37,286 bases of DNA from Anaerolineaceae bacterium (lineage in GTDB: Bacteria; Chloroflexota; Anaerolineae; Anaerolineales; Anaerolineaceae): assembly GCA_011620555.1 (NCBI GenBank), contig WOYY01000093.1:1-37286 (forward strand), read 5' to 3'. The notes under the pieces are model-generated. The model ran no database searches, was not told where the DNA came from, and worked only from the letters and a program-made list of their open reading frames with translations. A program made the position numbers and the translations under genes. Shown one piece after another: positions 29,888 through 34,799 of this stretch (position 1 is the stretch's first letter; every line of letters begins with the position of its first letter).

Positions 29888-30523
29888 TCATTTCCCCGCC
29901 GGCATAGTCTTGAACACATAGTCCCAGAGCGGGTTCGAGACGCCGAAGCGTTGATCCGGCGTCTGGAAGTGATGATGCATGTGGTTGCGCCGGACCATCC
30001 TGAAATAGCCCTTTTTGACGGGAAAATGATGAGTCCCATAATGGATCATGTCATAGGCAAGATAGCCCAGCAGGAAACCGGCGAACACCGGCGAAACCCA
30101 ACGGGGGGTCATGAGGACGTAAGTGAAGATGAGCTGGAACAGGCCGTAAAATACCAAAGCCATGGGAATGCTGACAACCGGCGGCATGACCAGACGGCCC
30201 TTATCCCGGGGTTGGGCATGATGCACACCATGCATCAGGAAAGAAAGCCGCTCCTGCCACGCGTTCTTTGGCTTGAAATGAAAAAGGAACCGGTGCAGGG
30301 TGTATTCCGCGAAGGTCCATAAAAACAAGCCCAGCAAAATGCCAAATACCATCGTCAAAGCCGATGCCTGCTGGATGGCAATTCCCCGGTAGATGAAGTA
30401 GGCGACGATCGGCACCCAGATCACCAAAACAGTGATGGGGCTTATATGAGTGAAAAACTCCAAAAAATCGGATTTAAATAAGCGGATGGATTCTTCCTTG
30501 TTTTCAACCTGTACTTGGGCCAT
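29888..30523 (-). CDS. fatty acid hydroxylase / sterol desaturase family membrane protein
   Basis: A 211-residue integral membrane di-iron protein. Four hydrophobic helices occur at about 31-48, 54-75, 112-134 and 140-160. The histidine boxes are EYTLHRFLFH (about 73-82), HGVHHAQP (about 98-105), IHYGTHH (about 160-166) and NHMHHHF (about 180-186). The spacing matches fatty acid 2-hydroxylase-like members. It likely hydroxylates an acyl chain of a membrane lipid and would need oxygen, which is notable in an otherwise anaerobic gene set. GGAGG precedes the ATG. The gene stands alone. The reaction is inferred; a different oxygen-dependent modification is possible. Confidence 0.87.
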   Translation of the reverse strand: MAQVQVENKEESIRLFKSDFLEFFTHISPITVLVIWVPIVAYFIYRGIAIQQASALTMVFGILLGLFLWTFAEYTLHRFLFHFKPKNAWQERLSFLMHGVHHAQPRDKGRLVMPPVVSIPMALVFYGLFQLIFTYVLMTPRWVSPVFAGFLLGYLAYDMIHYGTHHFPVKKGYFRMVRRNHMHHHFQTPDQRFGVSNPLWDYVFKTMPAGK

Positions 30524-30786: not shown

Positions 30787-31308
30787 ATGAATCGCAAACG
30801 AGTTTTGATCTCCGTCTTGTCCGCCGCTGGGCTGATAGGCGCAGCGCTGGGTCTGTACTTCATTTTCAGACCTCAGCCAGCCCAAACCAACCAGGAACGC
30901 AGCGATGAGGCGCTCGCGGAAAAGGCTCTGACGGACTACTTAACTTATCTATCCGAAGGGGACTATCAAGGGGCGGTGGACCTGTATGGCGGGTCCTATG
31001 AAATGCTGCAGGGGTATAACCCCAACGTCGACCCTTCTGACTACGCGGCCCTTCTGGAACACGGCTGCACCTATAACGGCTTTCGCTGCCTCCAACCCCA
31101 AGAAATCACGTATGTTGGAACAAATTCAGCGGGTGAATTTGTTTTTTCCGTTAAATTCCTGGATGAAAACGGCGAGATGCTTGTCATTGGACCCTGTTGC
31201 GGCGGCAACGCAACGGATTCTCCCCCCAGGTCTGAATTCTCGCTCAGGGTGCAGAAGAGCGGGCCTGGCCAATTTAAGGTGCTGGACTTGCCGCCCTATA
31301 CACCTTGA
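30787..31308 (+). CDS. small membrane-anchored protein with four cysteines, unknown
   Basis: A 173-residue protein. I chose ATG 30787 (MNRKRVLISVL), which begins directly before a hydrophobic anchor (about 6-24) and has GAAGGTAA upstream; the frame extends 17 codons further without a better site. The exported part starts with a helical segment (KALTDYLTYLSEGDYQGAVDLY, found as a general pattern in NTF2-like or DUF4878-type exported domains). Four cysteines follow: one pair 8 apart (GCTYNGFRCL) and an adjacent pair in GPCCGG, suggesting disulfides. It ends in LDLPPYTP. I do not recognise the family with confidence. It stands alone between the hydroxylase and the gcv operon. Confidence 0.6.
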   Translation: MNRKRVLISVLSAAGLIGAALGLYFIFRPQPAQTNQERSDEALAEKALTDYLTYLSEGDYQGAVDLYGGSYEMLQGYNPNVDPSDYAALLEHGCTYNGFRCLQPQEITYVGTNSAGEFVFSVKFLDENGEMLVIGPCCGGNATDSPPRSEFSLRVQKSGPGQFKVLDLPPYTP

Positions 31309-31325
31309 CAGCCTGGAACCGCTCA

Positions 31326-31360
31326 AAGCCTCACAGAATTGCCAACCAGGCTTGACTTTT
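31326..31360 (+). terminator. weak candidate terminator after the small Cys protein
   Basis: AAGCCT (31326-31331) pairs with AGGCTT (31348-31353) across a 16-base loop, followed by a T-rich stretch. It overlaps the -35 of the gcv promoter. The stem is short, so this is only a possibility. Confidence 0.2.
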
Positions 31361-31380
31361 ATTTCTGCTGCTTTTAAAAT
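31352..31380 (+). promoter_or_regulatory. promoter of the glycine riboswitch and gcv operon
   Basis: TTGACT at 31352-31357 and TAAAAT at 31375-31380 (each 5 of 6 consensus) are separated by 17 bases. Transcription should begin near 31387, about 15 bases before the riboswitch P1 stem. The 8-bp inverted repeat ATTGCCAA (31338-31345) / TTGGCAAT (31385-31392) brackets it. Confidence 0.78.
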
Positions 31381-31401
31381 TTAATTGGCAATCGTTGGAA
31401 G

Positions 31402-31486
31402 TTAATGGGAAGAGACCGCGCGTTCAAAGCGGCACCGAAGGGGCAAGGCATTCAAGCCGAAACTCTCAGGTAAACAGACCCATTAA
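31402..31486 (+). ncRNA. glycine riboswitch, single aptamer
   Basis: The conserved core of the gcvT/glycine riboswitch is plainly visible: an AGAGACC junction, CACCGAAGGGGCAAG, then CCGAAACTCTCAGGTAAA. P1 is a perfect 8-bp helix, TTAATGGG (31402-31409) with CCCATTAA (31479-31486). P2 is CCGC (31416-31419) with GCGG (31429-31432), and P3 includes GGC (31447-31449) with GCC (31456-31458). Only one aptamer is present. It lies between a good promoter and gcvH-gcvPA-gcvPB, whose products degrade glycine, which is the classical target of this riboswitch. In known examples glycine turns expression on. Confidence 0.95.
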
Positions 31487-31493
31487 ACAGACA

Positions 31494-31594
31494 CCTCTGA
31501 AAAACTGGCTTCTTTTCTTTTATTGAATGGATCCCGCGGGTTGATTGACAGAGGATACGTAAGTTCTTTGTCCAAATTTAACTTTTTAGAGGAG
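31494..31594 (+). promoter_or_regulatory. putative ghost helix and SD-sequestering expression platform
   Basis: CCTCTG (31494-31499) is complementary to CAGAGG (31549-31554), in the place where a second aptamer's P1 would be (a ghost helix). The same strand extended, CCTCTGAAAA (31494-31503), can instead pair over 10 bp (one G-U) with TTTTTAGAGG (31583-31592), which contains the gcvH Shine-Dalgarno (AGAGGAG, 31588-31594). The two pairings exclude each other. No terminator hairpin is visible, so control of translation is the likely mode. The pairings are seen; the switching is inferred. Confidence 0.6.
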
Positions 31595-31601
31595 TAATTG
31601 C

Positions 31602-31994
31602 ATGAACACACCCAAAGGATTGAAATACGCCAAGACAGATGAGTGGGTCAAGCTGGACGGCGATGTCGCCACAATCGGCATCTCCGACTATGCCCAGGAT
31701 CAACTCTCGGACATTGTCTATGTTGAAATTGTTGTCGAAGCTGGCGACAGTGTGAGCAAGGGCGACACCATCGCCACCGTCGAATCTGTCAAAGCCGCCG
31801 CAGATGTGAACTTCCCCGCTGATGGCGAGATCCTCGAAATCAATGAAGCGCTTGCCGAAACCCCGGAAACCCTAAACTCTGACCCCTATGGCGAGGGCTG
31901 GCTGCTCAAGATGAAACTGTCTAATCCTGCTCAGTTGGACGCTCTGATGGATGCAGATGCCTACGAAGCCTACAACGAAAGCCGTGAGGGATAA
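31602..31994 (+). CDS. gcvH: glycine cleavage system H protein
   Basis: A 130-residue lipoyl carrier protein that shuttles the aminomethyl group between the P, T and L proteins. The lipoylated lysine is K64 in TVESVKAAADV. Other H-protein features are the HEWV-like TDEWVKLDGDVATIGISDYAQDQLSDIVYVE opening (residues 12-42, conserved in order) and the NSDPYGEGWLLKM segment. AGGAG lies 7 bases before the ATG and can be hidden by the riboswitch. The TAA overlaps the gcvPA ATG by one base. H protein first in the operon places it directly under riboswitch control. Confidence 0.97.
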   Translation: MNTPKGLKYAKTDEWVKLDGDVATIGISDYAQDQLSDIVYVEIVVEAGDSVSKGDTIATVESVKAAADVNFPADGEILEINEALAETPETLNSDPYGEGWLLKMKLSNPAQLDALMDADAYEAYNESREG

Positions 31995-33349
31995 TGTTCA
32001 CACCTCACACTCCCCAAGAAATTGAGGAGATGCTGAAGGTTGTTGGGGTAGAGACTATCGAAGAACTTTTCGAGAAAGTTCCGGAGGATTTCCGTTTTCC
32101 AGAACTTGATCTACCAGAAGGCCTTTCTGAGATGGCGATTTCCGCCGAACTCAAGGAACTGGCCTCCGGCAATGCCACCACCGAGGATTTCATCTCCTTT
32201 CTCGGTGCGGGCGCCTATAATCACTACATCCCCGCCGCCGTGGATATGATCCTGCGCCGGGGTGAGTTTTATACCGCCTATACCCCCTACCAACCCGAAG
32301 TATCTCAAGGCACGCTCCAGGCGATTTTTGAATTTCAATCGCTGATGACCGAATTGACGGGCATGGATGTCAGCAACGCGTCCCACTATGACGGCGCGAC
32401 GGCCACGGCTGAAGCCGCCAACCTCGCCTATCATTTCTTCCGCGGCAAACGTAAGAAGATCGTCGTCTCCCGCTCCGTCAACCCGCAATACCGCGAAACC
32501 CTGCGCACCTACATGCAGGGTCTGGAAAACGTTCAGGTGCTGGGGGATGAACCCGCGGCTGGCGTATCCGGCGATCTGAATAAGCTGCTGGCCCTGACCG
32601 ACAAAGACACCGCCCTGGTGATTGTCCAATATCCGGACTTCTTCGGCCGGATTATCGACTACACGAAGCTGATCGAGGCCGCCCACAGTCAGGGCGCACT
32701 CGTGGCCTTTGTGTTCAACCCCACCGCGCTGGGGCTGCTGAAACCGCCCGGAGAATTTGACGTCGATATCGCTGTTGGCGACGGCCAGCCCCTTGGCATC
32801 CCCTTATCTTACGGCGGTCCCTATCTCGGCATCTTCACGATCAAGGACAAGTACGTCCGCAAACTGGCCGGCCGCCTGGTCGGCGAGACGGAGGATGAGA
32901 CCGGCAAACGGGCCTATGTCCTGACGCTGACCGCCCGCGAACAGCATATCCGCCGCGAAAAATCGACCTCCAACATCTGCACCAACCAGGGCCTGATGGC
33001 TCTGGCGGCCACCGTCTACCTCAGTTTGCTGGGCAAATCCGGCTTCAAGCAGGTCGCCGAACTCTGCTATCAGAAGGCCCATTACGCAGCGGAGCAGATC
33101 AGCAAGGTCAAAGGTTACGATCTGGCCTTCCCCGAAACGCCGTTCTTCCACGAGTTTGTGGTGAGCACCCCTGAGCCCGTGAGCATGATTAACGCCCACC
33201 TGCAGGAACATGGGTTCCTGGGCGGCTATGACCTGAGCCTGGACTATCCCGAAATGAAAAATAAAATGCTGATCGCCGTCACAGAAAAGATCACCAAACA
33301 AGATATTGACGACCTGGTCGCCGTTCTCGAGGAGGCCCATCATGATTGA
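31994..33349 (+). CDS. gcvPA: glycine dehydrogenase (decarboxylating) subunit 1
   Basis: A 451-residue subunit, the N-terminal half of the split P protein that decarboxylates glycine and loads the remainder on lipoyl-H protein. Landmarks are FTPHTPQEIEEML, FLGAGAYNHYIPAAVD, FYTAYTPYQPEVSQGTLQ, the NASHYDGATATAEA stretch and REQHIRREKSTSNICTNQ. It lacks the PLP lysine, which is on subunit 2. It overlaps gcvH by 1 base and gcvPB by 8 bases, giving tight coupling of an expected heterotetramer. The two-gene P protein is usual in Firmicutes, archaea and Chloroflexota. Confidence 0.97.
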   Translation: MFTPHTPQEIEEMLKVVGVETIEELFEKVPEDFRFPELDLPEGLSEMAISAELKELASGNATTEDFISFLGAGAYNHYIPAAVDMILRRGEFYTAYTPYQPEVSQGTLQAIFEFQSLMTELTGMDVSNASHYDGATATAEAANLAYHFFRGKRKKIVVSRSVNPQYRETLRTYMQGLENVQVLGDEPAAGVSGDLNKLLALTDKDTALVIVQYPDFFGRIIDYTKLIEAAHSQGALVAFVFNPTALGLLKPPGEFDVDIAVGDGQPLGIPLSYGGPYLGIFTIKDKYVRKLAGRLVGETEDETGKRAYVLTLTAREQHIRREKSTSNICTNQGLMALAATVYLSLLGKSGFKQVAELCYQKAHYAAEQISKVKGYDLAFPETPFFHEFVVSTPEPVSMINAHLQEHGFLGGYDLSLDYPEMKNKMLIAVTEKITKQDIDDLVAVLEEAHHD

Positions 33350-34799
33350 GCCTACCATCTATGAACTTTCTCAGCCCGGACGCAAAGGCGTCGCTTTCCC
33401 AGAATCCGATGTGCCAGCCTATGACCTGCCGGCCGGCTTCGCCCGCGAAGCGCTGAAGCTCCCCGAACTCTCCGAGCAGGATGTGGTCCGCCATTTCACG
33501 CACCTCTCACAGTTGAACTACTCGATTGATGGCGGTTTCTACCCCCTGGGGTCCTGCACGATGAAATATAACCCCAAGATCAACGAAGAAATGGCCCGCC
33601 TGCCGGGCCTGGCAAACACCCACCCCCTCCAGCCGATCGAGACCGTTCAGGGCAACCTGTACATCATGTATCAGCTTCAGGAATGGCTGCAGGAGATCAG
33701 CGGCCTCAACCGGGTCTGCCTCTCGCCCGCGGCGGGCGCCCAGGGTGAATTGGTCGGCGCATTGATCATCAAGAAATACCACGAGATCAACAACGCGCCT
33801 TTGCGCACGAAAATCCTGATCCCGGATTCAGCCCACGGCACCAACCCCGCGACCTCTGCGATGAGTGGTTTCAAAGTTGTGTCCCTGCCTTCGGATGCCC
33901 GCGGCAATGTGGACCTGGAAGCCCTCAAAGCGGAATGCGATGAGACCCTGGCCGGCCTGATGCTGACCAACCCCAACACCCTCGGCCTCTTCGATGAAAA
34001 CGTCCTGGAAGTGATCCAGCTGGTGCATGAAGCCGGCGGCCTGGTCTATGGCGACGGCGCCAACCTGAACGCCCTGCTCGGCGTTGTCCGGCCGGGCGAC
34101 CTCGGTTTCGACATCATGCATTTCAACCTCCACAAGACCTTCTCGACCCCGCATGGCGGCGGCGGACCAGGGTCCGGCCCGGTCGGCGTCTCCGAGGCGC
34201 TGGCCGAATTCCTCCCCAGCCCGGTGGTGACGATCATCGAAAAAGGCGACGAGGAAACGCCCCCCTTCTTTGGCTTCTACACGCCCCAGCACACCATCGG
34301 CCGGATGAAAGCCTTCTACGGCCATTTTGGGATGCATATCCGAGCCTACACCTACATTGCCATGCACGGCCCCGCAGGGCTGCTGGATATCGCTCAGAAG
34401 GCCGTCCTGAACGCCAATTACCTGATGGCACAGATCAAAGAGGACTATACCCTGGCCTATGACCGCACCTGCATGCACGAATTTGTGGTCGAAGGCGCCT
34501 GGGAGGACATCCCCGATATCCACGCCCTGGATATCAGCAAACGCCTGATGGATTACGGCTACCACCCCCCAACGAATTACTTCCCACTGATCGTCCATGA
34601 AGCGCTGATGATCGAACCCACCGAGACCGAAAGCAAGCAGACCCTGGATGCCTTCGCCAAGGCGATGAAAGCGATCGCCAAAGAAGCGCGGGAAGATCCC
34701 GACCTATTGCAGACCGCGCCGCATAACACCCCCATCCGCCGCTGCGACGAAGTCAAAGCCGCCCGGGATTTGGTGCTCTGCTGCTGGATCCCTGAGTAA
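33342..34799 (+). CDS. gcvPB: glycine dehydrogenase (decarboxylating) subunit 2
   Basis: A 485-residue PLP-binding half of the split P protein. I chose ATG 33342 (MIEPTIYELSQPGRKG), since GAGGAGG lies 6 bases before it; the open frame upstream lies in gcvPA. Landmarks are FYPLGSCTMKYNPKINE, the SPAAGAQGELVGAL loop, DSAHGTNPATSAM and the PLP-lysine segment NLHKTFSTPHGGGGPGSGPVG. The C-terminus is complete. No gene for the T protein (gcvT) or the L protein (dihydrolipoamide dehydrogenase) follows; both must be elsewhere or the cassette is incomplete. Confidence 0.97.
   Translation: MIEPTIYELSQPGRKGVAFPESDVPAYDLPAGFAREALKLPELSEQDVVRHFTHLSQLNYSIDGGFYPLGSCTMKYNPKINEEMARLPGLANTHPLQPIETVQGNLYIMYQLQEWLQEISGLNRVCLSPAAGAQGELVGALIIKKYHEINNAPLRTKILIPDSAHGTNPATSAMSGFKVVSLPSDARGNVDLEALKAECDETLAGLMLTNPNTLGLFDENVLEVIQLVHEAGGLVYGDGANLNALLGVVRPGDLGFDIMHFNLHKTFSTPHGGGGPGSGPVGVSEALAEFLPSPVVTIIEKGDEETPPFFGFYTPQHTIGRMKAFYGHFGMHIRAYTYIAMHGPAGLLDIAQKAVLNANYLMAQIKEDYTLAYDRTCMHEFVVEGAWEDIPDIHALDISKRLMDYGYHPPTNYFPLIVHEALMIEPTETESKQTLDAFAKAMKAIAKEAREDPDLLQTAPHNTPIRRCDEVKAARDLVLCCWIPE

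Follow-up and report, generated by a model that had tools for sequence, protein, structure and literature searches.

A tandem-derived single-aptamer glycine riboswitch with a ghost helix upstream of gcvH in an Anaerolineaceae bacterium, and a predicted translational relay

Introduction

Singlet glycine riboswitches are regarded as eroded tandems. Type-1 singlets consist of one aptamer with a ghost on its 3' side, are proposed to derive from tandems, and in the survey of Crum 2019 were located before glycine cleavage genes in 93% of cases (PMC6944388). The pairs that act as A-minor receptor in the aptamer-2 P1 of Vibrio cholerae are C5-G84, U6-A83, and G7-C82, and the crystal dimer of that aptamer is said, in the review that lists them, to resemble the Fusobacterium nucleatum tandem (PMC7357161).

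Two tandem systems illustrate the outputs that such riboswitches can have. The gcvT riboswitch of Bacillus subtilis, which like the locus described here controls glycine cleavage genes, is described as ON with glycine, with a downstream stem in the off state; unlike our locus, it has two aptamers and a Rho-independent terminator (PMC5666159). The gcvT riboswitch of Neisseria gonorrhoeae is described as a translational tandem ON switch for which no terminator was predicted, and in the published model the translation start is sequestered by base pairing with a segment of the aptamer-2 region when glycine is absent, a likeness to the mask reported below; however, a second aptamer is present there (PMC13104608), whereas our locus has only a ghost helix, together with an additional hairpin that competes with it.

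Here we analyze a 37,286-nucleotide stretch of contig WOYY01000093.1 (assembly GCA_011620555.1), referred to as the window, from an Anaerolineaceae bacterium. Like a type-1 singlet (PMC6944388), the window has one aptamer, a 3' ghost corresponding to the aptamer-2 P1, and glycine cleavage genes downstream; no terminator was found behind it. The window belongs to the Chloroflexota, a phylum in which glycine riboswitches have already been described (PMC3766115); the word "Chloroflexi" has 0 occurrences in the main text of the type-1 singlet survey (PMC6944388). A search for Brevefilum together with riboswitch found no paper in the literature collection that was covered.

Results

One glycine aptamer precedes gcvH, gcvPA, and gcvPB

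The leader and operon contain the following features; genus leaders are the nine aptamer-bearing leaders of the window's genus.

31352-31380, + strand: sigma-70-like promoter, TTGACT-17-TAAAAT, 10/12 consensus matches, ending 16 nt before the aptamer match
31394-31396 / 31490-31492, + strand: P0-like 3-bp leader-linker pairing GTT/GAC, paired in 9/9 genus leaders
31397-31491, + strand: glycine riboswitch aptamer RF00504, 70.9 bits, E 5.1e-13, model positions 1-94 of 94
31590-31594, + strand: Shine-Dalgarno (SD) sequence AGGAG of gcvH, read from the sequence 7 nt upstream of the ATG at 31602
31602-31994, + strand: gcvH, TIGR00527 and NF002270 both above cut-off
31994-33349, + strand: gcvPA, NF001696 above cut-off
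33342-34799, + strand: gcvPB, NF003346 above cut-off, start set at the ATG at 33342, overlapping the 3' end of gcvPA

The genes that follow the aptamer, in the order gcvH, gcvPA, gcvPB, are glycine cleavage genes, as is typical of type-1 singlets. A similar promoter-like site (10-11/12 matches, 17-nt spacer) is located 15-16 nt 5' of the aptamer match in 9/9 genus leaders. The draft genome of the host comprises 2.32 Mb and is 96% complete; we call the host Brevefilum-like on the basis of the named relatives of its GcvH, which are Brevefilum and other Anaerolineaceae records. The sole match to GCV_T (PF01571) found in this genome is on another contig (G000:C71:6811-7608, L212), in a 1042-aa open frame, and the single RF00504 match of the genome is not there. 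Upstream in the window, a 211-aa frame on the minus strand (29888-30523) had no NCBIfam match at E 0.001.

The initial annotation had described one glycine aptamer with an 8-bp P1. This was borne out with exact coordinates: cmscan of the whole window gave a single RF00504 match, which covers the full model length, far exceeds the gathering cut-off of 32 bits, and is also the only one in the host's draft genome. P1 is formed by TTAATGGG (31402-31409) and CCCATTAA (31479-31486), and the fold of 31402-31486 has a z score of -3.4. The aptamer is predicted to bind glycine. The leader-linker pairing GTT/GAC is invariant in the genus (n=9), so that covariation is uninformative there; a kink-turn may form at this pairing.

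A ghost helix stands in the place of the aptamer-2 P1

Beyond the aptamer, two short strands and the spacer between them were assigned as follows.

31494-31499, + strand: ghost helix 5' strand CCTCTG, in the place of the aptamer-2 P1 5' strand; the longer strand 31494-31503 can mask the SD
31500-31548, + strand: 49-nt spacer replacing the aptamer-2 core
31549-31554, + strand: ghost helix 3' strand CAGAGG, in the place of the aptamer-2 P1 3' strand

No second RF00504 aptamer was found in 31487-31601 at E up to 10, where three unrelated families were listed, and on this result we rejected the idea that the spacer retains a recognizable remnant of the aptamer-2 core.

For comparison, we collected 99 aptamer-bearing leaders, from 79/147 genomes of the family and 20/24 genomes of the same order outside it; searches across more than 40 genomes used stricter filters, which lose weak matches. 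A gcvH match was present downstream in 96/99, and the three leaders for which none was found in the stretch examined were dropped (n=96). An aptamer-2 core was present in 61/96 gcvH leaders (tandem) and absent in 35/96 (single), these labels being sequence-pattern calls and not covariance scores. In the tandem relatives, CCTCTG- and CAGAGG-like strands flank aptamer 2, matching the position of the ghost strands in the window.

The pairing of the ghost strands was then followed through these leaders. Over the nine genus leaders, 96.3% of cells were paired, and both-side changes were observed at 2/6 pairs, both contributed by one leader, G011. Family-wide, the two positions adjoining CTG/CAG were paired in 93/96 and 91/96 leaders, and 0/2000 shuffles were as high; this count was made without choosing pairs by their pairing, an earlier best-pairing choice being one that favors pairing. 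With one leader per genus the family covariation was weaker, with 17/2000 and 464/2000 shuffles as high. A CTG/CAG candidate pair was offered by 96/96 leaders, the search pattern itself having required CTG/CAG. The length of the spacer ranges from 25 to 50 nt across the genus leaders.

The CUG/CAG half of the ghost helix reads the same as the receptor pairs of the V. cholerae aptamer-2 P1 (PMC7357161). The conserved CTG/CAG would therefore correspond to the same bases as the published A-minor receptor pairs, and aptamer 1 should dock on them. On sequence comparison, the ghost helix 31494-31499/31549-31554 is the surviving aptamer-2 P1, homologous to the P1 of the tandem relatives. Its position, its covariation, and the match of its CUG/CAG pairs to the receptor together identify the element in the window, by its sequence features, as a type-1 singlet glycine riboswitch. 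The initial annotation had proposed that a CCTCTG/CAGAGG ghost helix replaces the P1 of a second aptamer, with about 50 bases between the strands, and both proposals hold in the tandem relatives, in the covariation of the genus and the family, and in the length of the spacer.

A gcvH tree was built from 94/96 leaders and genome G014, two proteins under 100 residues being left out; it was made by a quick method over 130 columns and has many open forks. The tandem and single labels change 5 times on this tree, which is a rough count. The window's genus clusters with the genus g15 and a third single leader (SH-aLRT 91), and within this group the window and G009 are sisters (SH-aLRT 95). Comparison with these relatives shows that the predicted switch of the window descends from the tandem form, with the aptamer-2 core gone and only its P1 left. 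Within the genus, the aptamer was found in 9/16 genomes and a full-length gcvH in 10/16, an eleventh genome having a weak partial match only. The genome with gcvH and no RF00504 match is G014 (98% complete; L189, G014:C41, gcvH at 1501), and no aptamer was seen by eye in the 400 nt upstream of this gcvH. The switch seems to have been lost in G014.

Terminator-like hairpins are common in tandem relatives, and none was detected in the leader of the window

In 45/61 tandem and 13/35 single leaders, a strong hairpin resembling a terminator begins within the P1 3' strand or immediately before it. With shuffled downstream sequence, such hairpins arose in 18/183 (tandem) and 1/105 (single) cases, where the control counts any hairpin starting in the region of the strand, whereas a real leader was counted only if its best hairpin starts there. 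Over all 96 leaders, pairing of the P1 3' strand was stronger with the sequence downstream of it than with the downstream sequences of other leaders (0/5000 permutations), and within the window's genus the ghost 3' strand showed no such preference (3199/5000). From this anatomy and from the B. subtilis system, we infer that P1 and the terminator are mutually exclusive in most relatives, which would imply an ON switch.

The absence of a terminator, reported in the initial annotation, was confirmed: a scan of 31250-31700 found no terminator-like site, and 0/9 genus leaders had a hairpin that both reached -8 kcal/mol and was followed by a T-rich tail. An intrinsic terminator in the window was rejected, since the scan gave no such site and the hairpin described below has no U-tract directly behind it. 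The best reading of the element is a glycine ON switch; its ancestral output, at the level of transcription, would have decayed in the genus. In the single leaders of genus g15 (L060, L084, L052, and others), the ghost 3' strand is inside a strong hairpin of about -18 kcal/mol, and these hairpins have only a short T stretch behind the stem.

A predicted competing hairpin uses the ghost 3' strand

Two further pairings involve the ghost strands of the window.

31547-31556/31563-31572, + strand: competing hairpin, -10.8 kcal/mol, z -4.1, no U-tract directly behind
31583-31592, + strand: SD-masking strand TTTTTAGAGG, which pairs with 31494-31503; P 0.88 once 31592 is transcribed

The hairpin, which the initial annotation had overlooked, was matched by 0/200 shuffles; it occupies the 3' strand of the ghost and stands at the place of the relatives' terminator. 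Within the genus it was seen in the window and G009 only, with 48% of cells paired elsewhere, and G012 and G006 have a different short pairing of the ghost 3' strand. In G009 nine of ten pairs are identical (31547-31555/31564-31572), compared with 5/8 positions of the loop and 30/47 of the spacer; because 176/220 aligned bases are the same overall, this identity is weak evidence.

A hairpin at this place raises the alternative that the aptamer and ghost bind glycine and the hairpin works at the level of transcription, either as a terminator that is weak or of the pause type, or via Rho, being the worn ancestral terminator. It shares both place and strand with the terminator-like hairpins of the 45/61 tandem leaders, G009 keeps its nine-pair core but not the mask, and five T are present at 31583-31587. 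However, the bases directly 3' of the stem are CAAATTTAAC, the scan of 31250-31700 gave no terminator-like site, and none of the nine genus leaders had the hairpin with T-rich tail described above. We consider an output at the level of transcription unlikely.

The SD mask is strong in the window and is not conserved

The initial annotation had also described a 10-bp alternative that masks the SD. It is present: CCTCTGAAAA (31494-31503) pairs with the masking strand over 10 bp, one of them a G-U. With its own ribosome-binding site (RBS), the ghost 5' strand forms a duplex of -12.8 kcal/mol, and none of 176 other RBS, drawn from roughly 260 kb of window and genome with a heuristic choice of starts, gave so strong a duplex; a 10-nt run with the ghost 5' strand was also reached by 2/176 of these. 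Over the nine genus leaders, the mask pairing occupied 56.7% of cells, compared with 57.8% in the best slid control, and a preference for own over other sequence was absent (630/5000 permutations as low). The nearest sister, G009, has a 3-nt indel at the mask and SD region. The mask was rejected as a conserved mechanism on these three grounds. Covariance in related leaders, which the initial annotation had put forward as the check on its pairings, thus supports the ghost helix, which covaries, and not the mask. Its translational ON switch does not stand as a general mechanism, the mask being unconserved, and is possible in the window, where the mask is thermodynamically strong.

In five of the nine genus leaders (L008, L011, L012, L014, and L017), ACCCC immediately follows the ghost 3' strand and might act as an anti-SD sequence; it is absent in the window.

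Folding of growing transcripts suggests an ordered exchange of pairings

In folds of growing transcripts of the window, the ghost was dominant up to 31566 (P 0.97-0.98). The hairpin reached P 0.98 at 31572, where the ghost cost +3.3 kcal/mol, a value that stayed at 2.1 to 3.3 until 31590; at 31592 the mask formed (see above) and the ghost then cost +7.9 kcal/mol. The preference against the ghost (7.8) was equaled by 0/200 shuffles in each of two designs, 31556-31588 and 31556-31600. A gap of 7 to 8 kcal/mol exceeds what glycine alone would be expected to pay at equilibrium. A relay built on these pairings therefore needs a kinetic decision.

These folds bear on the direct two-state model of the initial annotation, in which the glycine-stabilized ghost alone competes with the SD mask; the hairpin would then be incidental. 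The mask is the strongest of the sampled ghost-RBS duplexes, and it appears in the minimum-energy structure of the full length. However, the hairpin already outcompetes the ghost when transcription is still 20 nt short of the mask, the minimum-energy structure contains both hairpin and mask, and the mask is unconserved. We regard the direct two-state exchange as distinctly unlikely; a translational switch in the window would have as its lever the hairpin 31547-31572, which the initial annotation did not name.

With the ghost formed, opening of the SD in the window was predicted to become easier by 3.4 kcal/mol, a gain matched by 7/200 and 2/200 shuffles, and by 3.3 kcal/mol when the aptamer P1 was held. 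P1 was held, in folds of the nine genus leaders, because forcing the ghost had allowed pairing between leader and SD that disrupted the aptamer P1; the change that resulted was small. The mean unpaired probability of the SD was not raised by the ghost in the window (0.25 versus 0.24), and with P1 held it was 0.28 with the ghost versus 0.33. Among the genus leaders, a gain above 1 kcal/mol was seen in 3/9, and with P1 held in 4/9, none being below -1. In the sister G009 the effect was of opposite sign (-1.3 kcal/mol; -0.7 with P1 held). The mean effect was +0.92 kcal/mol in the window's genus and -0.86 in genus g15 (16 leaders).

Folds for this effect covered 95/96 leaders, one of over 450 nt being left out. 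Among the single leaders, 6/35 gained more than 1 kcal/mol and 5 were below -1; among the tandems, 10/60 were above and 12/60 below. Over all leaders the effect was centered on zero, gains and losses balancing. The gain of the window was the largest of the 35 single leaders, and the tandem L062 reached 4.0.

A further reading is that the switch is decaying in the genus, with regulation through a defined output stage gone. An SD effect near zero in most genus leaders agrees with such decay, as do the variation of the output-stage sequences among the nine leaders and G014, a nearly complete genome that has gcvH without the aptamer. Against this, 9/9 genus leaders keep the aptamer core, ghost helix, and leader-linker pairing almost unchanged while the spacer varies, and the promoter is kept. 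These constraints argue for function, and we judge decay unlikely.

Discussion

The reading that we favor is that of a tandem-derived type-1 singlet ON switch for gcvH-gcvPA-gcvPB, with a relay of ghost, hairpin, and SD mask in the window's species; we hold it tentatively, with confidence a little short of even. With glycine, binding and docking would hold the ghost helix 31494-31499/31549-31554, which would persist while about 31572-31590 is transcribed and leave the SD easier to open. Without glycine, the hairpin 31547-31572 would capture the ghost 3' strand, and the freed 5' strand 31494-31503 would then pair with 31583-31592 and mask the SD. In most tandem relatives the corresponding strand would instead be drawn into a terminator; in the window's species a hairpin with no U-tract directly behind it occupies that place. 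Thermodynamics is the sole basis for the translational relay in the window's species, and some of it, such as the unpaired probability of the SD, points the other way. The relay is a prediction for the species and not a rule for the genus, and the output stage is probably lineage specific.

A tandem-derived switch with one aptamer and a ghost before glycine cleavage genes is of a known kind, and it is the control of output that, we predict, has been rebuilt. A broader view is that a riboswitch is seen here in the course of changing its output: the old terminator hairpin would have become a lever that evicts the ghost and passes its freed strand to the SD, and the ancestral ON switch at the level of transcription would have turned into a translational relay of three steps. 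Aptamer 2 and the U-tract of the terminator would have been lost before the hairpin became a lever, and among the sisters in the genus the switch would rely on different pairings or be gone. We think this history rather unlikely.

The family around this Anaerolineaceae bacterium contains, before the same gene, tandem and singlet versions of the riboswitch and genomes in which it is absent, with terminators that are kept, weak, or not found. Such a series allows one to ask whether the second aptamer disappears before or after the output stage, and whether output can shift from transcription to translation. To this series the window contributes a testable three-part switch.
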